DNA from: Endomicrobiia bacterium
GTDB lineage: Bacteria; Elusimicrobiota; Endomicrobiia; Endomicrobiales; Endomicrobiaceae
Direction of reading: 5' to 3'
Length of the DNA: 64,000 nucleotides
NCBI GenBank assembly: GCA_009776745.1
Contig: WRNH01000001.1
Location: 1-64,000 of the forward strand
Shown here: piece by piece, positions 41,975 through 61,000 of the stretch
Layout: every line of letters begins with the position of its first letter
Numbering within the stretch: position 1 is the stretch's first letter
Notes under the pieces: model-generated
Told to the model about the DNA's origin: nothing
The model's input: only the letters and a program-made list of their open reading frames with translations
Database searches by the model: none
Translations under genes and position numbers: made by a program

Positions 41975-44002
41975 TCATCCTTGCGCAGCCAGAGAAGTCA
42001 AAATATAATCTATTGCGGACGTATCGAATTCTTTTGTCATCAGTTCAGACTCTGCAAAATCTTTCATAAAAAGTTTATTGTTTAAATCTTCAATAAACCC
42101 GGGATCGGATATGGCTAAATTCATTTCCCCGTTAACATAAAGGCTGAACTTGTCAAAGTTGGCTGAACCGACGCACGCCCACCCGTCATAAATCGCAGCT
42201 TTTATGTGAGTCATCCTAGGATAAAAATAAACTTTTATGCCGTTGGCAAACATTATATTGGCCTTTACGATATTGTTGCTGTTCATTATGCCGTAATCAT
42301 TTTCCAAAGGGAGAATAACCCTCACATCCACGCCCCTCGCCCTGGCATTGATCAGCTCCTGAATAATTCTCACGTCGGCAAAATAAGAATTTTGAATGTA
42401 AATTCTTTTTTTTGTTCTTTTAATCGCGGCGATCTGCGCATTGAAAATCTCCGCCGAAGACGGCTTTGTATACAATACTCTTATGCCGTACATATCCGGC
42501 TCAATGCCTTTCTCATAATCCGTTTTTGGTTTAAAGACCGCCCTTGCCGCTGCGGAAAAATCTCCGCCTGCGCCCGCAAAAGTCCATACCTGATTGAAAT
42601 CATCTTTAAGCTTCGCGACTATCGGGCCTTCAAGCGCGAACATCATATCATGCCAAAAATATCTGTATTCTTCGCCAAAATTCATTCCTCCGGTATAAGC
42701 AAGTTTATCGTCAATAATAATCACCTTGCTGTGATCGGTGTTGGCCCATGTATTCAGTTTAGTGCGTACTTTTATTTTTGAACCTTCTTTCAAATATTTC
42801 TTTACATTAGGCATCACGTAATCTTTTGAATACAGCTGTTCCGGAGATTTTGTCCAGTTAAGCACGGTATTGATCTCGTCAAGCAAAACTCTGACTTTTA
42901 CGCCTTCGTTAGACCGGGCTTTCAATTGATCGGCAACGGTAATAGCGTAAGGATCCGTTTTAAAAATATACATCCTGATGTCAATTTTTTCTTTTGCCTT
43001 GGCAAACTGCTCTATCATGTCCGGAAAAAAAGCGCTGCCGTCTATAAATATTCTTGACCTGCCCATATACTTTTCTTCGCTTATATTAAAATCGAGATAC
43101 TTGTCAAAAGCTTTTATATCCATTGTTTCATCGCCGTCATACAGAGGCGGGATTTTACCTTTGATGTTCTCTATGCTGGGAGAAATGCTTGTATACAGCG
43201 TATACATTGCAGTCGAGAAAAGCCTGTGAAACGAAGTAAAAGGCGATTTAATTAACGCAAAAACATGGCTTTTGATTAAAAAAGAATAAACTAAATCAAC
43301 GGAAAAGCCCAAAGGAGAGGTTTCTTTTTGAACTTCGTAATAATCAGGAAGCTTTACCGCCGCGGCGATATTTTTTTTCATATCCACATAAATATACGGA
43401 ACAAGAGGAATCGTATCTATCGGCAGGACAAATCTTTCTTCGGCGGGATAACGCGTTTTAAGTATTTCGATTATTTTAGAATATATTTTTTTTCTTATTT
43501 GTTTTTTGTCGATTTTGTCATCTACGTCAATATTTTCAGGAAGGCGCGACGGATCGCATACTTTAATCTGCGAATCCGAGTCCCTGTATAAAATGACGTC
43601 TTTAAAGCCGGTGAGCAGCATTTTGCCTTTATTATTATCTTTCGGCGCGATTTCAGCTATAATCTCTTCGGATGCCTGCCGTAAAATATTTTTCACAAGC
43701 AAAACTTTTTCAGCGCCGCCGCCGTTTACGCCTTCGGGAATTTCCTGCATTATTTCGGCTTCAATAACGGCGTTTCTTTTGCTTTTTCTGCTTCCTTCTT
43801 TCGGAAGTTTGGCAAAAAGAAAAAACGTTTCGTTTTCATGGCTGTAAAGAAGGTAAAGGTTTCCCTGATATATAAAAACTTCTTTCGGATCAAATGCCGA
43901 ATCGTCTATATCCTGAAGAACCTGATGTTTCTTATAAATGTTGTGGCATGCCGTAAAACCGAAGAAAAGTATGGCTGCAATAATAATTATTTTAACTTTC
44001 AT
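41975..44002 (-). CDS. Phospholipase D-superfamily lipoprotein
   Basis: 675 residues. The N-terminus MKVKIIIIAAILFFGFTACHN has a lipobox (FTAC), so it should be lipid-anchored. Two HKD motifs in the C-terminal half, HSKVIIIDDKLAYTGGMNFG near 423-442 and HIKAAIYDGWACVGSANFD near 597-615, form one PLD active site as in cardiolipin synthases and related phosphatidyltransferases or nucleases. The first 330 residues match nothing I recognise. A short promoter-proximal leader precedes it. Confidence 0.88.
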   Translation of the reverse strand: MKVKIIIIAAILFFGFTACHNIYKKHQVLQDIDDSAFDPKEVFIYQGNLYLLYSHENETFFLFAKLPKEGSRKSKRNAVIEAEIMQEIPEGVNGGGAEKVLLVKNILRQASEEIIAEIAPKDNNKGKMLLTGFKDVILYRDSDSQIKVCDPSRLPENIDVDDKIDKKQIRKKIYSKIIEILKTRYPAEERFVLPIDTIPLVPYIYVDMKKNIAAAVKLPDYYEVQKETSPLGFSVDLVYSFLIKSHVFALIKSPFTSFHRLFSTAMYTLYTSISPSIENIKGKIPPLYDGDETMDIKAFDKYLDFNISEEKYMGRSRIFIDGSAFFPDMIEQFAKAKEKIDIRMYIFKTDPYAITVADQLKARSNEGVKVRVLLDEINTVLNWTKSPEQLYSKDYVMPNVKKYLKEGSKIKVRTKLNTWANTDHSKVIIIDDKLAYTGGMNFGEEYRYFWHDMMFALEGPIVAKLKDDFNQVWTFAGAGGDFSAAARAVFKPKTDYEKGIEPDMYGIRVLYTKPSSAEIFNAQIAAIKRTKKRIYIQNSYFADVRIIQELINARARGVDVRVILPLENDYGIMNSNNIVKANIMFANGIKVYFYPRMTHIKAAIYDGWACVGSANFDKFSLYVNGEMNLAISDPGFIEDLNNKLFMKDFAESELMTKEFDTSAIDYILTSLAAQG

Positions 44003-44298: not shown

Positions 44299-47200
44299 TT
44301 AAGCTGCCGTCATCATGCTCTTTATGGCTGCCATCGACGACATCTGCGCAGATTTTCTTATCTGTTCTCTTGTGGCAACTTTATCTGCAAGTATGTCAAG
44401 CATATAAACCGTAAGCTGCGTATAAACGGCTGCCGCTCTATTTGCTTTTTCTTTATTTTCTACGGCTTCGCTTTCCCTGAACATTTCATAAGTAAACCCG
44501 CTTTTTTGCACAGGCACGGACAAGTTCAGCAGCAGAGGTTCTATTTCAGCTGCAGCCTGCGCCACTGTCTTTTTATTGAGAATATCTTCAATCTTGGCAA
44601 GCAACGCTTCGGACGGAACAAGATTCTCTTCCGCATACGACGACGGATAATATCCGGCCGCAAACAATGACATTTCAGCCATAAGATTTGCGTATACTTT
44701 AGCGATCGCGCTTGACGTAAATTTGCCGTCAACTCCGCTTATTATGATCTTTTCGTTTAATCCCTGCAGGAAACCTGCAATTTTTGCGGCATTGATTTCT
44801 TTTTGTTTATCTTCGGAAGAATTATAATCCGACAAAAGCTTATCCAAATGCTGCCTTGCAGCTCCTAAAGAACGTTTGGGATCAAGCGCGTTCATTAATG
44901 AAATTATGACAGTTTCGAAATTATTAATTTCGGAAAGCCTGTTCTGTTTTGCAAGACTTCCGATCAAAACAGCAGCGTATGCAGACGGCAGCGATTTACC
45001 TTTAACTTCAACTCTTCCCGCAGTTTCAACATCAAAAGAAACCGCGGAAACATCCATGGCCGATCCTATTTCTACGGCATTTAAATAACTTCCCGCATAA
45101 CTTTCCTCAAATGTTTTCTGCCCTGCTCTAAACAATCCGAAGTTAAAACCTTTGAAACGCGTTGAGCCTCTTGAGGGAATCCTGTAATTTTCAGCAGCGC
45201 TGTCGTCGACAACTTCTCCCCACAGCAAGCCCATGGGATAATCTACGGACTGCGCCCCCGACAAAGCGGAGTTTTTCAAAAGGTCAGACATGCTTGAACC
45301 CGTTTTGACAAATGTTTCGCCGTTTATTTCAGTCTTATATCCCGACACGTTTGCGTATGACTGCAAATCCTGAAATAAGACGACCGGAGTATATCCGAAT
45401 TTAGCGATAAGATTTGCCGCGTCAGGAGTCATGTTAGGAGATTTTACGGCGACATTTATAAAGAAACCCGTTTCGGCTGCCGCCGCCGCAATATTGTTCA
45501 ATATATTTTCATCCGCAATATCCGTTTCCACGGTAAAAGAAGTCACGCCGGCGGCAATCCATTTTGAAATTATCGCTTTGGCATTACCTGCATTTATATC
45601 CTTAATGTACATGGATATATCCATATCCGCCATCTGAAGCATGACCTGCTTAAGCTGCCTTTCAAAAAACATCTGCTGCATTGCCATTATTCTGACAAAA
45701 ATATTTTGTTCAATATCTATATTATATTTTTCCCTTTCGGAAACGGCGAAAGAATCAAGCCATGACGAATTTGCAGCATAGTAAGCGTCAACTTCCGCTC
45801 TTTGCTCCGCGGTAAGTTTCCGGTAAACTTTAACCGCAGCCAAAGTTTTTCTTTTTGCGACAAGCTCTCTATTAACGATTTCTCTTTCGGAATCCGCTGC
45901 AGTTAATTCGCTGCCTGTTATAATGCCTTGGGCTTCCGGAACGGCCATCCAATCAAGAAGCATATAGTTTGCCGCCAAAGGATTACCGTCAGCAAAAAGA
46001 TCATGCATTGTAAAACCGTTCACTTCCGCATTTTTCAAAACGGTTTCGGCATAACTTTGAAGAGACGTTATTTCTCCAATACCCGTATCTCCGCTGCTTC
46101 TAAGCATAGCCGCAACGGTAAGTTTTTCATTATACGCGCCTTTTTTTGCGGTTTGTCTTTCAACTTTTCGAATTTCGCCGGTAAGTCCGGCCGATACCGC
46201 GATTCTTTCCGATACGGCTTCAACGGTCGTAAGAGATTTATCCTGCGGCAAACTTTCAACAAAAAGCCTGTCTGCCGAGTTTGAAAGGTCCAAAAAACCG
46301 GCTCTTTTAAGTTTTATCTTTACTTCTGCATTATCAAACACGGCAGCGAGCAGTTGCTCTTTCGCTTCTTTGCTTATGATATCGGCAGGAATTTCATAAA
46401 TAAACGGCACGGAATACTGAAGTTCATAATAACTACCGTGTTCGGTCTGTACGCGCTTTACGGCAGCTTTAACGTCGATATCCCTTACTCCCGTATTAAT
46501 TTTGAAATTAAATAAAACATCGTCCGGATTGATATATCTTCTTTGCGTAACCGAAAAAGCTTTTGCGCCGTAAGAACCCATATAAGAAATCAAACCGGCG
46601 CTCGACGCGGCATTTTCAATATCAAAAATAAAAACCCTTTCTTTTGATTTCAGATAATCTGGCGCATTTGCTCTTCTTGTTCTTTTAACGGCTTCTTCAT
46701 GGATCGCAAGAGGAACTTTACTCAGCAGCCTTGCGTCCCTGAAAGCCCTTTCCGCGGATTTTTTATATTTGGCAGCCTTTTCAGTATCGGCATAAACAAA
46801 GTCCAAAAACATTTTCATGGTTTCAAACTGATAGGAGTCCTGCGGCACCCTTAACGAAAGAGCTTCAATAATACTTTCTTTTGTGGGAAAGAAAGGCTTT
46901 TTATTTAAACCTTTTGCTTTTTTAACTTCGCCGAGCAGCTGTTTTCTTACGGCAGACTTATTTTCCGAATTTTCAAGCAATGCGGTAATCATTATCCAAA
47001 TATCGGAGTCTAAAACGCCGGCAAATATCATGGAGTCTTTATTTAAAGAAGGTATTGTGTCGCCTTTAAGCGAATAAATAATAAGCTTCAAAAGTTCGCT
47101 GGCCGCCTGCTCCGCGATCTCCTGCACGGTCATGGTTTTATAAAAATCGGAATTCGTAATGCTTATGCCTTCGATTTTGCCGTTGATAATCCTATCCAAA

Positions 47201-50200
47201 AATACTGCATTGAAAGTCGCTTCAGTTCTCAACTGCTGTATCGGCTTCTGTATAAAAACAAATCTGGCCGGTTTTCCGCCGTTTTCGGCTCTTATCTCTT
47301 CGATCCTGTTTTTTACCACATCATTATCAAAATTTTCTTTGGTATTGCTTGATTTTTCTTCAAGCGTAAATTTCAACTTGTCAATATCTATGCCTTTTTG
47401 GCGCGCCAGATACAAAATAATCGATCGTATTATCATAGCTTCATTGGTAGCGGTAACTATTTCTTTTACTTTGTCGATTTCATCCTCATCCGTATACTTT
47501 TGAAGGTCAGCGCATTCTTCAGGCTTACTTATCACCCTGTTTTCATTTACTCTGACTGTCATTCCCAATTCAGCCGCCTTTCTTATCAAGGGAGCGGTAA
47601 GCCTTCCGACTCCTCCGGAAATAATAATCTCATTTGCCGTTCCCGAAACATACAGGTCCAAAGCTTTTTCAAATGTCGCAATATCATCATTTCCCAGTAT
47701 AACAATAGCGTCGGCTGCCTTTAATTCGCCTGAAGCCATAAGCCTTGAAGCAACTTCGTCAGCCAGCTGCCGGCCGCTTCTTCTTTCCATTTCATCTCTT
47801 GCGGCTTTTGCCGCAAACTCCATAAGTTTTGCCTGATCGGGGTTAGAGTAAATAGACTTATGAAACTCTTCATAACTTCCGGTTTCTCTTTTAAGCAGGG
47901 AGACATACTCCGCAGCCTCGTGTATTGCAAGCTGGTTAAGATAAAAAACTCTTTCCGCATCATCCATATTTTCCATGGCTCTGAGGAAAACTTCATTTAC
48001 GTACAATATGACTTTCCCGCGCTGCTTCAATTCTTTCAAACCGTCTTTTTCTTCAGCAATTTCATCCGTAACTTTAAGAGTCGCCATGGCGTAAATATTT
48101 TTTGAAAATATGAGGTCTTTATTATCGGAGACAATAAATTCATAATCATAAGTTTTATATTTGGGATCGCTTTCGGCCAAAGAGTTTTTAACTGTGTCCA
48201 GCGCGTCCTGCGCTTCATTTTTAAGAATAAGCTGATTGCCGTCAAGAAACAATCCTTCGATAATCCCGCTTTCAAAAAGATCAAACAAAGCATTTGCCGT
48301 CGTAACGGGATATTCCTGAATAAGCGAAATAAGTTCTTTGACATTCTTTCCCAAAGCCTGCATCACCTTCAGATAAACAGACCGGCTTTTTGGTCCTTTT
48401 AACTCATCGTTTTTAGACGAAACGAAATATGACATTTTCAATTCTTTCTGGTCTTCAATAAGTTTTTCAACAGCCGCGTCGATCTCTTCTTTCTTTCCGC
48501 TGAAAATCATCATAACGGATAAAGAATCATAATCGCTTACAGCGTTTATTATTTTCACTCCGGAATCTTCGCCGAGCTCGCTAAGAAGAAAATTTTCGGC
48601 ATAGGCGATCCAATTGTCAAAATCCGCTCCGCTATAACCCGTAAGTTTGAACTGATACATTACTTCGCTTTTATCCATATAAAACTCAATAATATCTTCG
48701 ATGTTTACGCCGTATCTTTCCGAAATAGCCCTGTCGCCCAATACATAATAAAGTTCCTGAAGATTTTTTAACCCGACGGAATGCGCGTAAATCAAGAGTA
48801 TGCCGTCTTCAGCTTTTTCAAGTTCAGCGGGTTTCTGCGCCATATTGATTATATCCTCTTCCGTTGCCGCATCCATCCCTCCTGCCCTGAGTTTTGCCAG
48901 CATTCTGGCTCTTAAAGTATTCACGGCTTGTCCGGTATAATCAACGCCTTGCCAAACAGGATCGGAGGTTTCAACAATTTCATACGCAACTCCGGGTTCC
49001 AAAGATTCGGAAAGGTCGCTGATAAGTACGCCTGACCCGTCTTTAAGAGTAACATTTCCTTCAATCTGCAGACCGGAAGACGCGACAAGATCATATCCGT
49101 TTGCGTTTAAAGATAATGCGAGTATATGGGTCATTCCGTCTTTCAATACCGTAATTCTTTTATTTTCTGAAATTTTTTCACGGATTTTTTCAAAATTTTC
49201 GCTGAAATTACCGTCAAGAACTACGTTGTCCGAGAGCAGGAAAAACGATTTATCGTCAGCATAATCGCTGCCGGCATATTCATTGCCGAAAAGATGGCTG
49301 ATTGAAATCTTAATTTCGAAAATTCCGTCCGGGTATTTCGGGTCTTTAACGCTTCCGTCATCGTTCACGTACGTAAAATCTTCACCTACTTTATATATCC
49401 AGTGAGGCTTCGAAAATGATACCGCGGAATCCGTTATAAGTCCGTGATGTTCTTTTTCATATTCTTCTTTCGTATATAACACAAGCTCGCCTATTTTTTT
49501 GTCGTTGTATTTAAACGACATTTTATTCCTTGCGAACCCCCTCCATATCGCGGGATCAAAACCTTCGCTTGCCAATCTAAAGATAGGAGATTCTTCGAAG
49601 AAATTCTTAATAATTTTCAACACTTTATCTCTTTCCGCGGCATCTACGACTATATGCCCTCCCAAAATATCGGCAACGTCTTTAATATTAATAGCTTCTC
49701 CCTTACTGCGCCGCGGCGAATTTACTTTTTCAAAAATGCTGTAAAGCGTCTTGCGCCTTGCATGTACTTCAACGCTTTCCGCTTTGGATTCGGATAATGC
49801 TTTGATCAGCTGTGCTTCCAAAAGCTCTAAAACGTCTAAAAGCGTATGATGGGGCTGGCCCAGCAGCTTCTCAATATCCCTGAGATTTTTATTAAACTCC
49901 CTTTTCTGCGTTTCGGCAAAAACGTCATTTCTCATTTCCTCAAATATAAAATTCGCGTTCAGTCTTCTTGCCAGCGGAATATAAACGGCATAGATTGTGG
50001 CTTTTAAATCATAAGATTCATCTTTGTCATCTTTATAGGCATTTAAAAGTTCATGAAGTTTATCTGCGAATATCGCCGTCATATGATCCGAATTTCCCGC
50101 GATACGTATAATCTCTTCCATATAATTCTGCAAAGTAAAATCGCCGTCCAGCATTTTGTACTGGGGCAAAGCGCGCACTTTTTTAATTTTTTCAATTACC

Positions 50201-53200
50201 TCAAGCACTCCTTTTGAGGGATAGCCCGATTCCTCTTCAAATTCTTTAACCAAATCCTCGCAATTTTCAATATCGGAAAACATCAGCGCGATGGCCGTAT
50301 CCGTTGAAAACGCGCCGTCATTATTGACCCAAAAATCATATTTCTCCAGTTTTTCAATTATACGCCTGTATTGGGAACGGTATCTGTAATTGATAAACGT
50401 TTCGGCGGCTTGAAGAGTTTTATTTTCGGGTTTAATATCGGCAATACCGTGATATTTATCTTTTACGCTCTCAGAAAAATTACTTATTATGTCTATGCTC
50501 TTTTTTTCTTCGTCAGTCATCGGAGTCCACTTATAATTATTCCCTGCCGCGTCTTTTTCCTGTCTTGCAAGGCTAATTATTTTCCACGCCTCTTTCAACA
50601 ATCTCACGTCTCCCTTTCCATACTTTTCCGGCAAATAACCTCTGTCGTATAAGTGCTGGATTAAGTCATCCGTTTTTTTCGGCAAAGCCGCAATCTCAAC
50701 ATTTTTATCGGTTATTCTCTGGATAATAACTTCTTTCAAAGCCAATTCCAACGCCCTTAAAACCCAGCGGTAATCATATTGTCTTCCTGTGCCTTCGTCA
50801 AACTCAAAAGAAGAAGCATAGTAATTGTCAAAAAACGTTATCATATTTTTATGCTCCGGATCGCTCTCTATTGAGAAGTGGCCATTCTTCAATATCGAAT
50901 GGTAAACTCCAAATACATCATGAATCCCGGGTATAAGAGCCGTAAATTTACTCTTTCCCGACTCTTTTTTTAGCATATAATTTATATACTGGACATATTT
51001 TTCAAAAACAGTGTAAATTTCATCGGCTTGAGGTTCGCGGCCTCTTATCTGTTCAAAATCAAAAATCGCCACAACGCCTCTTTCATCCCCCTCTCTTATA
51101 TTAATTTGCGTGTAGGTTGAGCTTGCGCCGTCGTCTCCGATATAGCTAAGATTATAACCGTTCAACAGGTAAGGGGTTATTCCGGTAAGCGACAAAGCAT
51201 ATTGATAAGCCGGCACAAGAACATCTTTTAAATTATCCCTTATATCCCTGTCACTGAAGATAAAGTCATAATAAATATCGGATTTGCTCGTTACGCTGCC
51301 CTTCACAAGAGATCCGCCTATAACTATTGAATAATCGTTCGAATTAACGTCATACCCTTTTTTGCTTTTTAAAAATTCTCTCACAAGGGAATCAACTTCA
51401 TTCATTATTGCTTTTATATCGTTTTTATAGTCTTCCGCGGCTTCAGCTTTTCTAGCCATCACGGCTTTATCAAATTTATCTCTGGCTTCACTGACGGATT
51501 CGTCAATACGTTTATCTTTAATTATCTCATCAATATTTATCTTATCAGCTTCCGTAAGAGCACTTAAATCAAAACCGGAATCAAAACTTGTCGCCAGACA
51601 GCTTATGTTTAAAGCTCTACACGCCTCTCTAAGCAGTTCCATCTGATCTCTCATAACTGACTGACCGTCGCTGTGCGAAAGATTTACTTCAATTTTCGTG
51701 TAGCCGTTGAAATACGCGTAAAGGGCGATAAGCCACGGCTGGTCCCATTTTTTATATTCGTCTTCTTTAAGGTCATATACCGTTCTGTCTCCTATAGGCT
51801 TGTACTTCTTAAGTTCACCGCACATGACGGAAACCGACTCGTATAAATTATCGTCTTTAGGATTAACGGTATGTACGGCATAGATCAGAGGAACAAACAA
51901 ACTTGCCAATTCGGGATATTTCGCCTGTATTTCGATAAGTCTTTCAATAAAAATTTCTTTCGCTCCTTTGTCGTTATTGAACGCTTTTACAAGTTCCTTA
52001 AAAAGTTCGTATTCTTTATCATTGATGAGACCCATTAAGGCATTGTAAACATACTTTGAAAACGTTCCGCTGTTAATGGTGCCGACAATAAGTTTTCCGA
52101 TTTCTTCCGGATTAGAGGCAATATAATCTCTCATGTATCCGTTAAGACTAAAATCAGCGTCTACCGTGTCTTGACCGTCTTCGGATAATTTTGCGTTCTC
52201 TATGTCAAAAATGGCAATAGGCATAACCTTTGCGGCATTTGCGTCGTTAAAAAGCCGCGCGTAAGCCGCGAACAGCGTGCCTGTTTTCCGCGTATCTTCA
52301 ATAGGAATTATATATTTTCCGGGAATGCCTTCCGCGCCGACAACAGACAGTTTCGGATCGCGCGCATCATCATCGCGGTAAGGTTCAATTTCAAATTTAT
52401 TTTTTAAATCAACCGCGGGTTTTTCCTTCAAAAATACTCCGGTATCCATATACGCGTCTTGTCTGACATATACAATTTTTATTCCGAGATCTCTTGCAAC
52501 TGACTCCGCGATCGTCTGGGTTATGTGGCGAGGAAATGTCTGCCTGAGAGCTATCACAAAATCATCTTTTGACAACTCTCCTTTTTCAATCTTATCCCCG
52601 ATTATCTCGTCCTCTATTTTCTTTTTTATTCTCTCGGCGTACTTTTTAAGAACTTCGACGTCGCCGATTCTGATTCTAAAAAAATCATCCATTAACGGCG
52701 AATCCATATCCTGAAAAGAAGTAATGTTTTCAAGATCAATCGCTTTTTCATAACGCCCTGAATATTCAAGATATGTGTCTTTGGCAAATGTCAAAAGCTT
52801 TCTTTGCGAATCAACCTGATTTTGCCTGCCTGTTTGCGACAAGTATGTAATAAAATGCTGCGATTCAAGATATTCATGGAAATGGCTCGTGATTCTGGAC
52901 TCTCCGGTAAGATTTTTACTTCTTAGATATTCTCCGAAACTTTCATAAATGGGAGCGCCTTTTTCATATAATGCCGCAGTTTCAAAATTTTCATGCTGAA
53001 TAAGAGCATTTATATAAGCCGTTACCCTCTGTTCATTGCCAATTGAAAGAAGTTTATCCATAAGGGCGGTATGGATATAAAAAACCGCCCTGTCATCCGG
53101 CGTTTTATTCAAAGCCGCAAAACACCAGCCGTCGTCATTAATCAAAAGAGGGGAGTCGCTTACCATTACATACACTTCAGTCTCAAGCAAATTTCCCGAA

Positions 53201-55302
53201 ACCGCATTTTTCAGTTTTTTTATCAATGCGTTATATTTAGACGTATCGGAAATTATACTGCCTCCGAATAAACTTAAAATCAGATTTTGCATTTGCAAAG
53301 GATTGGTCAAAAAAAAGTTTGCAAAATCAAACTTCCCCGACATAAGACTTTTTCTCAGAGCATCCTTTTTTTCAAAGGTATCATATTCTCCGGTTCCCAA
53401 AAGCATTTTGAGAACCTGAATATAAACCGCATTCGTAAGATCTTCGTAATTTAACATTATTGACTTTCTTATGGCTTTCGCTACGGTTTCTGCGGAAAAA
53501 TCGCCAAGAGCGGTAAATGTTCCGTCATTTCCGCTCCGTAAAACCGAATCGGCTTTGAGTTTCACAACATTAATCTGCCCGCCTGCTTTATACGACAGAG
53601 ACATCTCATTAGTATTCCCGTCGTACGAATAATTAATTTCCGACATTCCCCGCTTCGGAGATAAAAATGCTTCAACATCAGCCTTAACGGCCTGCAAAGA
53701 CAAATCAAATCCGCTCACGGCCAAAGTTTCTAAAACTCTTTGCGCAAGAGCTGCCGGCAAAAGTTCGTTGAAAACCGGTTCTGGTATCGCGGAGCTTTCG
53801 GCAGCCGACAAGAGTTTTGCGTATTCGACATATTTAAAGGAGTAGTCTTTTCCGGATGACGCGATCTTCGGCATGAAAGTTACGCTGTTTACGCGTTTCT
53901 TGTTTAATATGCTGTTAATGCCGTCGGTATGAAAGCCTCCGGCAACTATAACTTTAACTTTTGTTTTGGAAGAATTCTCAAAAATCGCTTTAGCGTTCGC
54001 CGTAACGCCGAAATATAAATCCGGATATACTCCTTCATGAAGCTTTACATTTCCGAACATTTTATCGATGAATATCTCATTTCTCTGCAAGTTGGTATCA
54101 TTAAAACCTTCGGCTTTAACTTCAAATGAAGAAGGCGCGGCAAGAGCGTTTTCGGAAACGTATTGCGATACTAAATTCTTAAATTTTGAAAGATTGTCTT
54201 TATAATATATGTATTCGTAAGCGGTTGCTGAAGCCGTTAAAACATTTTTATATACGTCAAAAAAACGGGACATAAAAATTATATTTTTCGAATTTCCGTC
54301 GGCAGAAAGTTTTGAATACAAATCGTCTAAGAGGTATCCCTCTTCATTGATGAATTCAAGACGGTTAAGCCTGTCCGACAAAGATATGGATGTGACAAAT
54401 TTGTCGAGTTCAGGGTATTTATTTAACTGCACTTCATCCCTGTTTTGGTAAAGATAAGATATGAGAGCCTGCCTGTCTTTCATATTATTTGACAGCGTCA
54501 TAAGCTCTGAGTACTTCTTATAACTTAAATTGTTTTTCAAACCTGAAAAAAGCTCGCTCATCTGCAACTGAAGCCTCTTCTGGCTTACGCTCATGACAGA
54601 ACCGCTGGAAAGCATATACAGGGCGATATTCGGGTAATCGTTCACGTCTATGCCGTTTTTGGAACTTTCTTTTTTCAGAAAATCAAAATAATCGGAATCC
54701 GGCATCGAACCGCCGCGGTATCTTTGATACGCAGTGAACAATCTTTTCTGTTCAGATGAAAAATATCTGTTTCTTAATACGGAAAGTCTTTCTTCAAGAG
54801 GAAGAAGGCTGTTTGATATCTCGTCTCTTTTCTCTATTAATTCGGCAAAAAGGATCAGATTTTTTGTATAGATCTGCTTGTCTTCGACGGAATTTATTCT
54901 CCTGCCGTATTTTGCGGCAAAATATTCCGCGCCGCCTATATTGCCGCTGTTAAACAATGCTTCTAAAAACACATCTCCGCTCTTCTTTCCCAAACTTGAA
55001 TAGACCCATTCAAAGTCGCTGTTTTCAGAAGAACCTTCGATATAAAGTTCAAAATTCGGATAGCTTGCGTTTAGTTTTTCCAGAAGTGAAAAGATTTTGT
55101 TTTGAGTTTCCGCGTGAAAGTGAAGGTCCTGAATATTAAAAACCGATACCGCGCTGTTTTTAAATGAGGCGTCCGTAACCGAAGCAAAAGAATTTACCGT
55201 ATCTGCGGAAAATGCCGCGGGAGCCGAGGCAAAAACGTGTGAAGGAAACGATGAAACCGCCAGCGCAACAGCGATTGTTAATGAAAATAATTTTTTCAGC
55301 AT
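44299..55302 (-). CDS. Giant exported multidomain protein with a degenerate RelA/SpoT-like module
   Basis: 3667 residues with a signal peptide (cut near 25, SHVFA-SAP). Modules in order: an N-terminal 480-residue part with QDLHFHAETQ (59-67) and VAGGFHTDGI (near 450), reminiscent of the ChaN/TraB fold; a GlnD/DUF294-like nucleotidyltransferase module (GGSLVKGS...SD near 1326-1340); a RelA/SpoT-like module (HD-like near 1664-1790, synthetase-like near 1846-1975, TGS-like near 2046-2140, ACT-like near 2216-2290); a DUF218 module (2528-2760); then long helical regions and a C-terminal tail SAQMSSMAAIKSMMTAA. Key catalytic residues of the Rel module are missing. Function is unknown. The ATG ending at 55302 follows GGGAT. 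Confidence 0.85.
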   Translation of the reverse strand: MLKKLFSLTIAVALAVSSFPSHVFASAPAAFSADTVNSFASVTDASFKNSAVSVFNIQDLHFHAETQNKIFSLLEKLNASYPNFELYIEGSSENSDFEWVYSSLGKKSGDVFLEALFNSGNIGGAEYFAAKYGRRINSVEDKQIYTKNLILFAELIEKRDEISNSLLPLEERLSVLRNRYFSSEQKRLFTAYQRYRGGSMPDSDYFDFLKKESSKNGIDVNDYPNIALYMLSSGSVMSVSQKRLQLQMSELFSGLKNNLSYKKYSELMTLSNNMKDRQALISYLYQNRDEVQLNKYPELDKFVTSISLSDRLNRLEFINEEGYLLDDLYSKLSADGNSKNIIFMSRFFDVYKNVLTASATAYEYIYYKDNLSKFKNLVSQYVSENALAAPSSFEVKAEGFNDTNLQRNEIFIDKMFGNVKLHEGVYPDLYFGVTANAKAIFENSSKTKVKVIVAGGFHTDGINSILNKKRVNSVTFMPKIASSGKDYSFKYVEYAKLLSAAESSAIPEPVFNELLPAALAQRVLETLAVSGFDLSLQAVKADVEAFLSPKRGMSEINYSYDGNTNEMSLSYKAGGQINVVKLKADSVLRSGNDGTFTALGDFSAETVAKAIRKSIMLNYEDLTNAVYIQVLKMLLGTGEYDTFEKKDALRKSLMSGKFDFANFFLTNPLQMQNLILSLFGGSIISDTSKYNALIKKLKNAVSGNLLETEVYVMVSDSPLLINDDGWCFAALNKTPDDRAVFYIHTALMDKLLSIGNEQRVTAYINALIQHENFETAALYEKGAPIYESFGEYLRSKNLTGESRITSHFHEYLESQHFITYLSQTGRQNQVDSQRKLLTFAKDTYLEYSGRYEKAIDLENITSFQDMDSPLMDDFFRIRIGDVEVLKKYAERIKKKIEDEIIGDKIEKGELSKDDFVIALRQTFPRHITQTIAESVARDLGIKIVYVRQDAYMDTGVFLKEKPAVDLKNKFEIEPYRDDDARDPKLSVVGAEGIPGKYIIPIEDTRKTGTLFAAYARLFNDANAAKVMPIAIFDIENAKLSEDGQDTVDADFSLNGYMRDYIASNPEEIGKLIVGTINSGTFSKYVYNALMGLINDKEYELFKELVKAFNNDKGAKEIFIERLIEIQAKYPELASLFVPLIYAVHTVNPKDDNLYESVSVMCGELKKYKPIGDRTVYDLKEDEYKKWDQPWLIALYAYFNGYTKIEVNLSHSDGQSVMRDQMELLREACRALNISCLATSFDSGFDLSALTEADKINIDEIIKDKRIDESVSEARDKFDKAVMARKAEAAEDYKNDIKAIMNEVDSLVREFLKSKKGYDVNSNDYSIVIGGSLVKGSVTSKSDIYYDFIFSDRDIRDNLKDVLVPAYQYALSLTGITPYLLNGYNLSYIGDDGASSTYTQINIREGDERGVVAIFDFEQIRGREPQADEIYTVFEKYVQYINYMLKKESGKSKFTALIPGIHDVFGVYHSILKNGHFSIESDPEHKNMITFFDNYYASSFEFDEGTGRQYDYRWVLRALELALKEVIIQRITDKNVEIAALPKKTDDLIQHLYDRGYLPEKYGKGDVRLLKEAWKIISLARQEKDAAGNNYKWTPMTDEEKKSIDIISNFSESVKDKYHGIADIKPENKTLQAAETFINYRYRSQYRRIIEKLEKYDFWVNNDGAFSTDTAIALMFSDIENCEDLVKEFEEESGYPSKGVLEVIEKIKKVRALPQYKMLDGDFTLQNYMEEIIRIAGNSDHMTAIFADKLHELLNAYKDDKDESYDLKATIYAVYIPLARRLNANFIFEEMRNDVFAETQKREFNKNLRDIEKLLGQPHHTLLDVLELLEAQLIKALSESKAESVEVHARRKTLYSIFEKVNSPRRSKGEAINIKDVADILGGHIVVDAAERDKVLKIIKNFFEESPIFRLASEGFDPAIWRGFARNKMSFKYNDKKIGELVLYTKEEYEKEHHGLITDSAVSFSKPHWIYKVGEDFTYVNDDGSVKDPKYPDGIFEIKISISHLFGNEYAGSDYADDKSFFLLSDNVVLDGNFSENFEKIREKISENKRITVLKDGMTHILALSLNANGYDLVASSGLQIEGNVTLKDGSGVLISDLSESLEPGVAYEIVETSDPVWQGVDYTGQAVNTLRARMLAKLRAGGMDAATEEDIINMAQKPAELEKAEDGILLIYAHSVGLKNLQELYYVLGDRAISERYGVNIEDIIEFYMDKSEVMYQFKLTGYSGADFDNWIAYAENFLLSELGEDSGVKIINAVSDYDSLSVMMIFSGKKEEIDAAVEKLIEDQKELKMSYFVSSKNDELKGPKSRSVYLKVMQALGKNVKELISLIQEYPVTTANALFDLFESGIIEGLFLDGNQLILKNEAQDALDTVKNSLAESDPKYKTYDYEFIVSDNKDLIFSKNIYAMATLKVTDEIAEEKDGLKELKQRGKVILYVNEVFLRAMENMDDAERVFYLNQLAIHEAAEYVSLLKRETGSYEEFHKSIYSNPDQAKLMEFAAKAARDEMERRSGRQLADEVASRLMASGELKAADAIVILGNDDIATFEKALDLYVSGTANEIIISGGVGRLTAPLIRKAAELGMTVRVNENRVISKPEECADLQKYTDEDEIDKVKEIVTATNEAMIIRSIILYLARQKGIDIDKLKFTLEEKSSNTKENFDNDVVKNRIEEIRAENGGKPARFVFIQKPIQQLRTEATFNAVFLDRIINGKIEGISITNSDFYKTMTVQEIAEQAASELLKLIIYSLKGDTIPSLNKDSMIFAGVLDSDIWIMITALLENSENKSAVRKQLLGEVKKAKGLNKKPFFPTKESIIEALSLRVPQDSYQFETMKMFLDFVYADTEKAAKYKKSAERAFRDARLLSKVPLAIHEEAVKRTRRANAPDYLKSKERVFIFDIENAASSAGLISYMGSYGAKAFSVTQRRYINPDDVLFNFKINTGVRDIDVKAAVKRVQTEHGSYYELQYSVPFIYEIPADIISKEAKEQLLAAVFDNAEVKIKLKRAGFLDLSNSADRLFVESLPQDKSLTTVEAVSERIAVSAGLTGEIRKVERQTAKKGAYNEKLTVAAMLRSSGDTGIGEITSLQSYAETVLKNAEVNGFTMHDLFADGNPLAANYMLLDWMAVPEAQGIITGSELTAADSEREIVNRELVAKRKTLAAVKVYRKLTAEQRAEVDAYYAANSSWLDSFAVSEREKYNIDIEQNIFVRIMAMQQMFFERQLKQVMLQMADMDISMYIKDINAGNAKAIISKWIAAGVTSFTVETDIADENILNNIAAAAAETGFFINVAVKSPNMTPDAANLIAKFGYTPVVLFQDLQSYANVSGYKTEINGETFVKTGSSMSDLLKNSALSGAQSVDYPMGLLWGEVVDDSAAENYRIPSRGSTRFKGFNFGLFRAGQKTFEESYAGSYLNAVEIGSAMDVSAVSFDVETAGRVEVKGKSLPSAYAAVLIGSLAKQNRLSEINNFETVIISLMNALDPKRSLGAARQHLDKLLSDYNSSEDKQKEINAAKIAGFLQGLNEKIIISGVDGKFTSSAIAKVYANLMAEMSLFAAGYYPSSYAEENLVPSEALLAKIEDILNKKTVAQAAAEIEPLLLNLSVPVQKSGFTYEMFRESEAVENKEKANRAAAVYTQLTVYMLDILADKVATREQIRKSAQMSSMAAIKSMMTAA

Positions 55303-55352
55303 TTTTTTATCCCATGAAACAGAATAAAATAAAGTTGTGAACATCTGACTTA

Positions 55353-56201: not shown

Positions 56202-57887
56202 TCAGTCTTGTTCCCTGTCCATAGTCTGCGGAACGAGATCGCCGAAATCATTTACTACTGGTTCATTCAATGCCTCGGGCTGCGGATATTTTCTTTTTTT
56301 TCCGAGTTTATCCAATGTTTCTTCCAGATCGTCAAAATCCATTTCCTTATCGACCAGCAGTCTTTTCACGATAGCGTCGACAACGTCCCAGTTGGCTTTT
56401 AAAAGTTCTTCGGCTTTGGAATAACAGGAATTTAATATGGCCATTGTTTCATTATTGAGTTTTTCTTTCAGATTTTCCGACATAAGCTCAGCAGGTATAG
56501 CGGAAAAATCTCCTATATACCCGCTATTTCCCATGCCGAAGCGCCAGACCATAAAAGTCGCCCTCTGCATGGCGTTTCTAAAATCTGACGAAACTCCGTC
56601 TGAAGTGGTGCCGTATTTCATTTTTTCCGCGACATGGCTTGCAAGCGAAACTATGATATCGGCAATATATTTTTCTTTATTTGCAGTATGAAGCTCCTCT
56701 TTCGGATAATGAGAAACAAGCCCCAAAGCCGAACCGTGCGATTTCACGGTAATTTTAAAAACGTCGTCTGTAGGATGAAGCATATACAAAGCCACGGCAT
56801 GTCCCGCTTCGTGATAGGCGACCATTTCAAGCTCCTGCGGAGTCATTTCAAGATGCGTTTCCAAACCGAGCTCTATTCTTTCCATCGCGTCCACAATATC
56901 GTCCATTTCTATGGCCTCTTTTTTCTTCCTTGTGGCGATAAGAGCGGCTTCTTTAACTATATTTTCGATATCGGCCGGAGATTTGCGGACCGCTTTTTTT
57001 GCAAGCCTGCTTACGTTCAACTCCGGAGAAACATTAACTTTCTTCATATAAAATTCAAAAATCTGTTCCCTTTCCTTCAAATTCGGAAGCGTAATGGTTA
57101 TCTGCCTGTCAAATCTGCCGGGCCTTAAAAGAGCTTTATCCAAAACGCTCAGATCCGCGTTTGTCGCGGCAATAACTATGATATTGCTCTTTTTGCCTTC
57201 CAAACCGTCCATCTCGACAAGAAGCTGGTTCTGCGTACTGTTTGTTTCCTCGCCTCCGCCAAACGACGTAAAAGTTCTCCCTCTTCCTATAACTTCGATC
57301 TCGTCTATAAAAATTATGCACGCTCCGTCGGTATAAGCGTATTCTCTGGCTTTTTTAAACAGATTTCTGACTCTTGAAGCGCCGACTCCGACAAATACCT
57401 CGACGAATTCGCTGCCGGCCATATTGATAAAAGGGATCCCGCATTCGGTGGCTATCGCTTTTGCAAGCAAAGTTTTTCCGGTTCCGGGAGGCCCCATAAG
57501 AAGAAGCCCTTTTATGATCTTACCGCCCATTTTCTGAAGCTGTTTTCTGTCTTTGATCAGCTGCACGACTTCCATAGCTTCTCTTTTAGCGCCTTCAAGC
57601 CCTATAACTTCTTTAAAAGTTACTTTTACGTCGTCAATTTTTATCTTTGCTTTCTTATTCTGCCCAAACCCTCTTCGCATAAAAAAGTGCAGATATAAAG
57701 CAACAAATATCAAAGCGTGAATCGCGGCCATCACAAACTGCACCGGCATGGTCGCAAGCGTCATAGTTCTATAAAATGATTCAAGCTTGCTCAAACCGTA
57801 AATAGAAAGAAGTATCATTGCCACGGTTATAAAGCCGGCAAGGACCCAACCCCAATAACTTTTAATAAACATCTTAAATTTACGCAT
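56202..57887 (-). CDS. FtsH-like membrane AAA+ metalloprotease with a very short periplasmic loop
   Basis: 561 residues. Two N-terminal helices (about 11-32 and 47-69) are separated by only about 15 residues, where FtsH normally has a domain of about 75. Then Walker A GPPGTGKT (132-139), Walker B CIIFIDEIEVIGR near 189-201, the SRH region LLRPGRFDRQI near 253-263, the zinc motif HEAGH near 360-364 and the third-ligand region TTSDGVSSDFRNA near 440-452. It should be an active ATP-dependent protease. A canonical FtsH is probably encoded elsewhere; this looks like a specialised paralogue serving the giant-protein locus. Confidence 0.9.
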   Translation of the reverse strand: MRKFKMFIKSYWGWVLAGFITVAMILLSIYGLSKLESFYRTMTLATMPVQFVMAAIHALIFVALYLHFFMRRGFGQNKKAKIKIDDVKVTFKEVIGLEGAKREAMEVVQLIKDRKQLQKMGGKIIKGLLLMGPPGTGKTLLAKAIATECGIPFINMAGSEFVEVFVGVGASRVRNLFKKAREYAYTDGACIIFIDEIEVIGRGRTFTSFGGGEETNSTQNQLLVEMDGLEGKKSNIIVIAATNADLSVLDKALLRPGRFDRQITITLPNLKEREQIFEFYMKKVNVSPELNVSRLAKKAVRKSPADIENIVKEAALIATRKKKEAIEMDDIVDAMERIELGLETHLEMTPQELEMVAYHEAGHAVALYMLHPTDDVFKITVKSHGSALGLVSHYPKEELHTANKEKYIADIIVSLASHVAEKMKYGTTSDGVSSDFRNAMQRATFMVWRFGMGNSGYIGDFSAIPAELMSENLKEKLNNETMAILNSCYSKAEELLKANWDVVDAIVKRLLVDKEMDFDDLEETLDKLGKKRKYPQPEALNEPVVNDFGDLVPQTMDREQD

Positions 57888-58076: not shown

Positions 58077-61000
58077 TTATGCCGCGCTTAAAAGTTGTCT
58101 TATAGTTGCCGCAGAAGTTAATGCCGATTGTCTTGCCATCTCCTTAGCGTCAACTCTGTTCATCGCAGCGGCTATGAAGACAGTTGCCGCAGCAACAGCT
58201 CTTTCATCTCTTACTTTTGCAACGGTACGCTCATTTTTATTGACAACTTCATCAAAAGAATCTTCCATTAATTTTGCTATATCGGTTACGGTATAGGCGC
58301 CAAATTCAGCTTCAGCCAACCGGTTAAGATTTTCTACAAAACGGTTCATGCTTTCTTGATTGCCGATAAATTCATGCCAGCCCAATAAAGCTTCCCCTAT
58401 ATATTCCTTGACCCTGATATTTTCATCATTATTTTTATCATTCATAACCTGGATATATTTTTCTAACGATATTCCGAGAGCGTTAAGATAGAGTCTCTCC
58501 ATGTGATTGACAACAGCTCCCTTTATAAAACCTCTGGCTTCAGCCATAATTAAAGATTCTGCCTCTTCGTCTAGTAAAGGTTTCGGAGAGTCTGAGAATA
58601 TTTTCTTAAGAACTACTTTTTTCAGTACTTCATTAGCTCCGGAATCATTTAAAAACTTGATCAAATCCGATCTGGAAGATTTATCGTCAAGAATGAACCC
58701 GAGACCGTCTATATCTATATTACCAAAAGTAAATCCCGTTATCTGTTTGCTTTCGACTGCCATGCGATAACCCTTTCTGAAAGACTTAAGATGTTTAGTT
58801 GCTTTCGGAGATATTTTTCCGGATTTTACGATCTTGCCGCTTGCGTCTTTTTCATAACTGTCTTCGTCTATAAGCATTGTGCCGACCGCAAGATTTTCAC
58901 TTTTAATTAAATCTTCTTGCGCGTCATTGATTTTTATCGTATTATTTCTTACGGATATCGTATGTTCCTTTGAAAGTTTAGACAAAGCCGTCAAAGCGGA
59001 TCTTACGCCGGCATCATTAAGTTTGGAAACATCCAGGCTGACTCCGTCAAAACCGAGATCAAAAAGTTTTTTGATTATAGCCTCAAAATTAACATCGGAA
59101 GCGTCAACGGCAACCGTAACTTTAATACGCTGGGAGTTGCTGAGATAATGCGCAGCCGACGTAAAATTATCATCCACGGCTACTATTCCTTTAGAGTCGA
59201 CCGTAATTTTTTTACCTGCGTCAATTATAAGCGCCGTCGCTTTGTTGTTCTTTACAACATGATCCATTGCCGTTATAATTCTGCCTAAATCTTTCATCCT
59301 TGCCGTAATCCTTAAATCGCTCCATTGTTCAGGCTTGACTCCGTTATATATTCTTTCGGTATTAACGGCTTCGTTGATAGTTTCAATATCGCTCGCTGCG
59401 GTAATCTTCGACTCAACAGTATCTACATATTTTGTAAAATCAACGATACCTTCAAAACCCGGAATGGACGCAGTGTCAATATTGTTTTTATTGAGAGTAT
59501 CGACCATGGCAATTTTTCCTATTCCAAAACCTCTTTGATCGCCCTGCAGAATAGGATTAGCGTTTATATTGCCCGCTAAAGCATAGAACGCGGCCATGAT
59601 AAAACTGTCGTCCGAAATATCTGCAGCCCATTGCGTATCCTGAAATTTTTCTCCTCTTAAAAACAATTGTATGTCATATGTGCCGTCATTTACATTTCTT
59701 ACAAGATACTGTTCGGCTACAATATTTTTTCCCGCATATTTAAAAGTCGCATTAGGCATAATTCTGACGTTTTTATATTCGGCGCCAGCGCCGGTCTTAG
59801 GTCTTTTATAGGCTCTGGTTACAACCATAGCGGAATAACCTGCCTTTCTTTGAGCTTCCGCCTTTGAGACAGCCCTGTCTTTTTCTGCCGCGGCTTTTTC
59901 AGCTTCGGTTCCTCCTAAAAACAATCTCGCTTCATTTCCTTTAAAAGTATCTTGGGAATAGATATACTCATAACCGCCAAAACTCATAGCAATACCTATG
60001 GACGCTTCCTGAGAGACGCTTCCGGTAACATGTTCTTTTGAAATATTAACCGCTTTGCGGCCTGCCGCTTTTGACGCAATTCCAATATTGAGCGCATTAA
60101 AGGTTCTTGTTCTCAAATTGTCAATATCTTTTTCATAGCTCATGCCGCTGAGCCGCTTTATTCTTAGCTCAAGCGTACGGGCAGACATTCTCTGAATAAA
60201 TGCCGGAAGATCGTCATAAACCGCATCTCCGCTTATATAACCGCTATCCGCCAGCAGCTCAATTTTTTTAGCTCTGACCGTATTTTCTCTATACGTTTTT
60301 TTAGTTTTGTCTATTTCATTTTTCACCGTTTCATATTTACTTTCGCCGACAATAAAGATTATTGCCGTTCTTCCGGCATCCTCGGAATATGTTATGCCAA
60401 ATTCGCTTGCTATTCTTTGCATATCCTCACCAGACATATCGGAATACTTAACTCTTATAGTTTTTGTTTTTTCTTTTTCAGAATCTTCTGGTTTAACAGT
60501 TAAAGAAGGATCCCTTTGCATTTCTAAAGCAGAAGAAGAAGGCTTTTTTTCCTCGGGTTTGGAGGGTTCTTCCTCAATCGGCGCCAACGGTTCAGCCGTT
60601 TCTTCAGCCGCAGTCCCGTATATTAAATCAATAAAATTAACTATTGCATCAAACTGCGCAGAATCTGAAACAAAAGATCCCAATTTTTCAATTAACTTGT
60701 CTTTTGATGCAAAAAGTTCATTGCCGTCATCATCCAGCGTCGCTTTAATTAATGAAAGCAAACCAACCTGAATTTGCGCTTTATTACCGGATTTTTTTAT
60801 AAGGTCTGATATCTGAGTCCAAACGGAAACCGGTATATTTTCAAAAACATTATCTTTATTAATCGACGGCAAAATATCGCCTTTTAAAGAATAAATTATA
60901 ATCCTCGCCAGCTCACTCGCGATTATATCCAGTATCTGTTCAGAATCCATATTTTCAAATAACGGCTCCGCTGTTACGCTTATGCCTTCGACATCATCCT

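Follow-up and report, generated by a model that had tools for sequence, protein, structure and literature searches.

A RelA/SpoT-like module with a lost hydrolase site and a conserved synthetase pocket inside a predicted exported giant protein of Endomicrobiia

Rel proteins, also known as RelA/SpoT homologues (RSH), are among the most universal of cytoplasmic regulators, and the locus described here raises the question of what such a protein is doing as one brick of a giant that carries a signal peptide. The locus lies in a stretch of 64,000 nucleotides (the window) comprising positions 1 to 64,000 of the forward strand of contig WRNH01000001.1 (GenBank assembly GCA_009776745.1) from an Endomicrobiia bacterium, whose genome assembly amounts to 2.29 Mb in 130 contigs and whose relatives are Endomicrobiaceae from termite gut and rumen. 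The gene and the parts of its product that bear on this question are:

44299 to 55344, minus strand: gene of the giant, predicted exported protein, a single open reading frame of 3681 amino acids from the first ATG
55222 to 55302, minus strand: signal peptide, residues 15-41 (MLKKLFSLTIAVALAVSSFPSHVFASA), by sequence inspection
49780 to 50412, minus strand: hydrolase (HD)-like region and linker, residues 1645-1855, Mn2+ site lost, HD changed to SD at residues 1690-1691
49375 to 49779, minus strand: synthetase (SYNTH)-like domain, residues 1856-1990, from profile, fold and site table
48850 to 49182, minus strand: TGS-like remnant, residues 2055-2165, poorly conserved
48655 to 48792, minus strand: possible helical (HEL) segment of RSH proteins, residues ~2185-2230, weak

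A previous sequence-only reading of this DNA had described a 3667-residue protein with a signal peptide, and we likewise prefer the ATG at 55302, which gives that length and a cleaner signal peptide (MLKKLFSLTIAVALAVSSFPSHVFA, then SA after the break), over the first ATG. The N-terminus of all complete relatives consists, by inspection, of K/R followed by a hydrophobic stretch and then small residues, and all of them thus display the Sec signal peptide by which exported alarmone synthetases (EAS) are recognized. No other clear transmembrane segment is present in the giant, which has one further, weakly hydrophobic stretch and six cysteines. The signal peptide is the one feature that points to the proposed location of the giant as an envelope scaffold, a location that we treat as predicted.

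Homology to long RSH proteins extends over residues 1645-2165, with HD, SYNTH and TGS following one another in that order. Single-sequence matches in Pfam are below threshold (HD_4, E 0.02; RelA_SpoT, E 0.005 with the module alone), and relatives were thus needed to establish the homology. Alignment by hhalign of a profile of 15 members of the giant family with 30 Rels gave E 3.7e-26, as compared to 0.024-0.9 for 20 column-shuffled profiles, 0.13 for a reversed profile and 0.10 for a profile of the unrelated N-terminal head domain of the giants. Values for the individual domains are 5e-11 (HD with linker), 5e-13 (SYNTH) and 2e-5 (TGS), and the giant profile aligned with the genomes' own Rels at 9e-15. 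When the PDB was searched with the 15-sequence profile, 13 of 14 matches were RelA/SpoT (E 1.7e-8 to 7e-6), with no other match below 0.8. Additionally, Pfam RelA_SpoT is matched by 13 of the 15 family members (best 7e-6) and TIGR00691 spoT_relA by three giants (best 7.7e-10). An AlphaFold2 model of the module, built from an alignment that excluded every cytoplasmic Rel sequence, has a predicted local distance difference test score (pLDDT) of 88 and a predicted template modelling score (pTM) of 0.90. Its best 27 Foldseek matches in the PDB are all long RSH proteins, with SpoT 7qpr first (E 1.8e-12 over 541 columns). Small alarmone synthetases (SAS) come next, and SaEAS and Tas1 rank lower. Overall TM-scores, at 0.3-0.46 by query length, are moderate, which is expected if the domain arrangement differs. 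A similarity due to chance or composition, or a chimeric assembly, would fit the weak single-sequence matches but is already refuted by the profile and fold matches, whose controls were clean, and by the occurrence of the module in giants of 20 other genomes; we give it virtually no weight.

The profile and Foldseek checks that had been proposed therefore bear out the hydrolase, synthetase and TGS counterparts in their proposed order, and all motifs quoted for them are present at residues 1681, 1760, 1790, 1865, 1980, 2066, 2114 and 2142. However, the claim of a complete architecture with an ACT-like part was overstated. A search for an ACT domain after the TGS was not significant (E 0.34), the HEL segment matches weakly (E 0.015 alone), and the C-terminal HEL/CC/ACT regulatory set of long RSH proteins was not found in the giant. 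Resident Elusimicrobiota Rels likewise end after TGS or lack ACT.

The state of the two active sites was tabulated for 19 giant-embedded members, 18 of which could be scored at H77. The Mn2+ ligands in the HD domain of Rel_Seq, which we take to be H53, H77, D78 and D144 plus the ED motif, have largely disappeared: H77 is present in none of the 18 members, D144 is kept in 6 of 19 and H53 cannot be aligned. The table thus shows a predicted pseudo-hydrolase in every member, as in RelA.

The synthetase half presents a different picture. Following published assignments, D264 and E323 are the Mg2+ carboxylates and R241 is on the ATP side (PMC7983052). R241, K243, D264 and the His, Tyr and Lys of HWxYK occur in 19 of 19 members and E323 in 18 of 19; the equivalents in the focal giant are R1863, K1865, D1892, E1953 and H1981/Y1984/K1985. 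The G-loop is rebuilt and not merely absent. Members of the termite clade have G-[FY]-x-[RS]-x-[KR] there (GYSSMRY in L024), many of those in the rumen clade have KQARxK, and the focal giant has FARNK in place of YQSLH. Within this loop H312 has become K/R in all 19 members, and Y308 has become F, Q or L (F in the focal giant), an aromatic residue being retained in 10 of 19. The change of HD to SD and the missing YQSLH had both been called correctly for this giant.

Conservation follows the same division. An invariant Rel residue occurs in 22 of the 40 highly conserved columns versus 54 of the 384 others (424 aligned columns, p 2e-8), and conservation is higher in SYNTH than in HD and TGS combined (p 0.002), the TGS having 3 conserved columns out of 94. 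Hydrophobic or aliphatic residues occupy none of the 20 conserved SYNTH columns versus 44 of the 109 other columns (p 1.6e-4); because these conserved columns are non-hydrophobic, they have the pattern of a binding or catalytic site and not that of a fold core. Ratios of non-synonymous to synonymous substitution (dN/dS) show purifying selection on the Rel module, at 0.075-0.19 in pairs of 62-78% identity and 0.31-0.38 in more distant pairs, values that are rough as dS is near saturation and one pair was not computable. The module is thus no decaying remnant of an enzyme: it combines a pseudo-hydrolase with a SYNTH pocket guarded by selection. Consequently, the description of the Rel part as degenerate holds for the lost HD metal site and the remodelled G-loop and fails for the Mg2+ pair, the R/K pair and HWxYK, which are kept. 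The proposed loss of catalysis similarly applies to the hydrolase site and not to the synthetase, since those same residues rank among the best-conserved columns of the entire module, which is under purifying selection.

These columns also bear on the possibility that the Rel fold is purely an exapted scaffold, a structural brick without ligand in which conserved residues hold the fold and the contacts between modules. Such a role would suit the dead HD site, the nearly unconserved TGS and the erosion of both a nucleotidyltransferase motif and, in the rumen clade, a phosphoribosyltransferase motif elsewhere in the giant. There is also precedent in the pseudo-HD of RelA and the pseudo-SYNTH of Acinetobacter SpoT, which are kept as regulatory or structural parts (PMC9974481). 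However, the Acinetobacter pseudo-SYNTH is reported without the residues critical for synthesis (PMC9974481), and the conserved SYNTH columns of the giants are polar and coincide with Rel catalytic residues. We consider a pure scaffold unlikely, if more credible than the other alternatives.

The reading that we favour, with a probability of roughly 0.55, is a nucleotide-binding or altered-acceptor pyrophosphotransfer site that is joined to a pseudo-hydrolase and exported; we place it ahead of both a scaffold and a classical exported synthetase. The hydrolase half lost its Mn2+ site while SYNTH kept the ATP-side Arg and Lys, both Mg2+ carboxylates and HWxYK, and the guanosine-holding G-loop was rebuilt in a conserved new way (Y308 to F/Q/L, H312 to K/R, R269 to H). 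As the ATP and metal side is kept and the G-loop is rebuilt, the pocket would most likely bind ATP-Mg or another phosphorylated ligand, and it may transfer pyrophosphate to an acceptor other than GDP or GTP, either beyond the cytoplasm or inside a target cell. In vivo export, the binding of a ligand and the altered acceptor are all predictions from sequence. Several points weigh against them. ATP is scarce outside cells. The equivalent of E323 is Gln in the most divergent member, the guanine-stacking Tyr (Y308) is replaced by a non-aromatic residue in 9 of 19 members, and 17 of 19 have His in place of R269, the residue that stacks on adenine in Rel. With the HD residues and the second Asp of the nucleotidyltransferase lost, at least two neighbouring modules look pseudo-enzymatic. 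Finally, the branch of the giants is so deep (2.6 substitutions per site) that where the module truly roots among Rels is uncertain.

The kept Mg2+ dyad would also be compatible with an active exported alarmone synthetase of changed specificity, comparable to the Sec-exported EAS or the type VI effector Tas1 and possibly delivered to a neighbouring or host cell. Exported RSH synthetases are known and active (PMC12691689), other giants with the same head keep Walker A/DEAH motifs or a P-loop that would be useful only where ATP is present, and the host bacteria live in termite gut and rumen. However, the G-loop Tyr and YQSLH are lost, EAS are small SYNTH-only proteins while this module is located mid-chain in a 3700-residue protein with no known delivery domain, and no immunity-like partner was identified. 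An activity of this kind appears improbable to us.

How the module came to be there was addressed with 341 Elusimicrobiota genomes, counting matches above 90 bits as the giant-embedded form. This survey, which realizes for Elusimicrobiota a proposed search for the same module order, found HD-SYNTH-TGS giants in 21 genomes including the focal one, all of one order, with 19 in Endomicrobiaceae and one each in two other families. The remaining matches listed score below 65 bits and are mostly frames of ~300-770 amino acids that represent ordinary Rels, with a few longer ones (1101 and 1288 amino acids). The Rel-module region is matched in 16 of 60 near genomes, and the search beyond these used a closer six-member alignment; a scan of genome contigs with the single sequence gave no match. 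Those matches examined outside the phylum are normal Rels with HDxxED. In the tree the giants are monophyletic with 100% support and the sampled Elusimicrobiota cytoplasmic Rels form a separate clade of their own, a topology that argues for one old capture. The giant branch is so long, at 2.6 substitutions per site, that the donor cannot be named, and since the giants lie outside all Elusimicrobiota Rels it is undecided whether a resident Rel is the nearest source. A long RSH (HD-SYNTH-TGS) was thus captured once, long ago, into a predicted exported giant in an ancestor of the Endomicrobia order, the exact time being conjectural, and was inherited vertically thereafter. Homology, domain order and single origin agree with the earlier proposal that a cytoplasmic long RSH was captured into a protein with a signal peptide.

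The Rel module shares the giant with several other modules:

53770 to 55182, minus strand: N-terminal head domain, residues 55-525 (NIQDLHxHxExQ ... GGFHT), common to a large family of Elusimicrobiota giants
52165 to 52587, minus strand: type-I phosphoribosyltransferase-like module, residues ~920-1060 (IEDTRKTGT, resembling a phosphoribosyl pyrophosphate (PRPP) loop)
51025 to 51357, minus strand: nucleotidyltransferase-fold module, residues ~1330-1440 (GGS..KG......SDIYYD)
47185 to 47715, minus strand: DUF218/YdcF-like module, residues 2544-2720, shared (by eye) with the neighbouring giant and absent from the closest orthologue

The nucleotidyltransferase-like module noticed just before Rel is supported by Foldseek matches to DrrA (2.7e-6) and GlnE (3.1e-5); the second Asp of its DxD is an invariant Tyr (Y1358), leaving the GS-x(n)-D-x-D motif incomplete. 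The idea of a nucleotide-handling island was also right, and the island is longer than claimed since a phosphoribosyltransferase-like module precedes Rel as well. The latter has HPRT/PyrR profile matches, a match to TIGR01203 HGPRTase, a fold match and Pfam Pribosyltran matches in 3 of 14 members (best 2.6e-7), and the stretch that resembles a PRPP loop ([DE]Dxxx[ST]G) reads EDTRKTG in the focal giant and DDISKQS in the rumen clade. Rel would thus be one of several nucleotide-enzyme folds (phosphoribosyltransferase-like, GlnE/DrrA-like, Rel) strung together behind a common, putatively exported head.

This head is found in 69 of the 341 genomes, where it fronts frames of up to 12,656 amino acids. 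A typical Endomicrobiaceae genome has ~25 first-look head candidates, of which only four per genome were scored; further carriers are G000:C26, C33 and C10. No relative of the head was found in the PDB, and a TraB/ChaN-like identity, which no PDB or Pfam match supports, was set aside. Two head giants (L143, from G000:C26, and L148, from G004:C40) contain a SecA/DEAD-like ATPase part, with Walker A GTGAGKT and DEAH intact in the first. The Rel-carrying giants of the two other families (L036:3-17819:- and L147:639-7736:-) have several catalytic motifs that look intact: the giant of G040 includes Dus, in which the GCP cysteine is present, along with Maf, a methyltransferase and an amylase, and that of G038 includes a metallophosphatase and a cytidylate kinase whose P-loop is intact. 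Since SecA-, Dus-, Maf- and cytidylate-kinase-like modules occur elsewhere, housekeeping enzymes have been captured repeatedly and Rel is no one-off; in the handful of giants examined, such capture looks like a habit. It is conceivable, though we put little faith in it, that these giants of Endomicrobia and relatives are exported proteins with one head and bodies of captured enzymes, of which some are active (the captured set being Rel, phosphoribosyltransferase, nucleotidyltransferase, SecA, Dus, Maf and cytidylate kinase). They would then form a new class of multi-enzyme effector that is delivered to other cells, or a machine for processing nucleotides outside the cell, and Rel would serve in it as a pyrophosphotransferase with a new acceptor. 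One head match, G296:C20 from genus g8 (mostly small genomes), contains five internal stop codons, which suggests decay of giants during genome reduction.

The module shares with long RSH proteins (RelA, SpoT, Rel; Pfam HD_4 - RelA_SpoT - TGS; TIGR00691) the domain order, the fold over 541 columns, the R/K pair, D264, E323 and HWxYK. It differs from them in the lost HD metal site and YQSLH, the R269 to His change, a vestigial TGS, the absence of a detected ACT, its mid-protein position and the signal peptide. The cytoplasmic Rel that resides in the same genome (L037, 499 amino acids) has the HD-SYNTH-TGS order too, with HDxxED and YQSLH intact. EAS (SaEAS, VpEAS/RelV; PMC12691689) and Tas1/Apk1 similarly combine SYNTH with a signal peptide or export domain, but they are short SYNTH-only proteins nearer to SAS, whereas the giant carries a long-RSH module with HD and TGS among many modules. 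The single SAS-type SYNTH typical of EAS is not what the giant contains, as long RSH matches rank first. The EAS survey (mBio 2025, PMC12691689) stopped searching at a point where long RSHs had not yet been included, and it makes no mention of Elusimicrobia. One catalytic half is lost with the fold kept also in RelA (pseudo-HD) and Moraxellaceae SpoT (pseudo-SYNTH) (PMC9974481), but those are cytoplasmic regulators while the giant is predicted to be exported and apart from the ribosome pathway. The giant further resembles the huge, mostly unannotated open reading frames of Elusimicrobiota and Omnitrophota, small-genome host-associated bacteria (PMC11573180, PMC10066038). Those of Elusimicrobiota have been described as poorly characterised (PMC11573180), and the domains reported for Omnitrophota are adhesin-like, in contrast to the housekeeping-enzyme folds behind a common head seen here. 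No exported giant of many modules that contains a long RSH was reported in the literature searched. The locus thus provides a testable case of an alarmone enzyme that may have a new job outside its normal compartment, with metal and ATP residues under selection and the guanosine loop rebuilt. It also offers a first handle on the make-up of unannotated Elusimicrobiota giants as housekeeping-enzyme modules behind a common head.

Two further features concern the tail and surroundings of the giant:

44302 to 44343, minus strand: conserved C-terminal tail (SSMAAIKSMMTAA; family I/L-L/M-x-A-A-COOH)
56202 to 57887, minus strand: gene of an FtsH-type AAA+ M41 metalloprotease, upstream of the giant in most relatives

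The giants of the window have a common tail, [ILM][LM]xAA-COOH, at 44302-44343 and 58077-58110, and the distant G038 protein ends in SMSAAA. The transfer-messenger RNA (tmRNA) tag of the host genome, hand-read from L103, seems to end in MPIAA. The tail could be a processing or degradation signal. LLxAA as a general C-terminal tag throughout the genome was rejected, with 65 matches versus 66 in the reversed control. The position of the FtsH-type gene suggests a functional link between protease and giant, in quality control or processing. A second giant adjoins at 58077-63863 on the minus strand and continues in L041, giving at least 4985 amino acids with a DUF218-like module and an LLSAA tail. 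Downstream of the first giant is a gene for a phospholipase-D-like lipoprotein (41975-44002, minus strand), which also adjoins the giant in two relatives of the same genus (L022 and L026).
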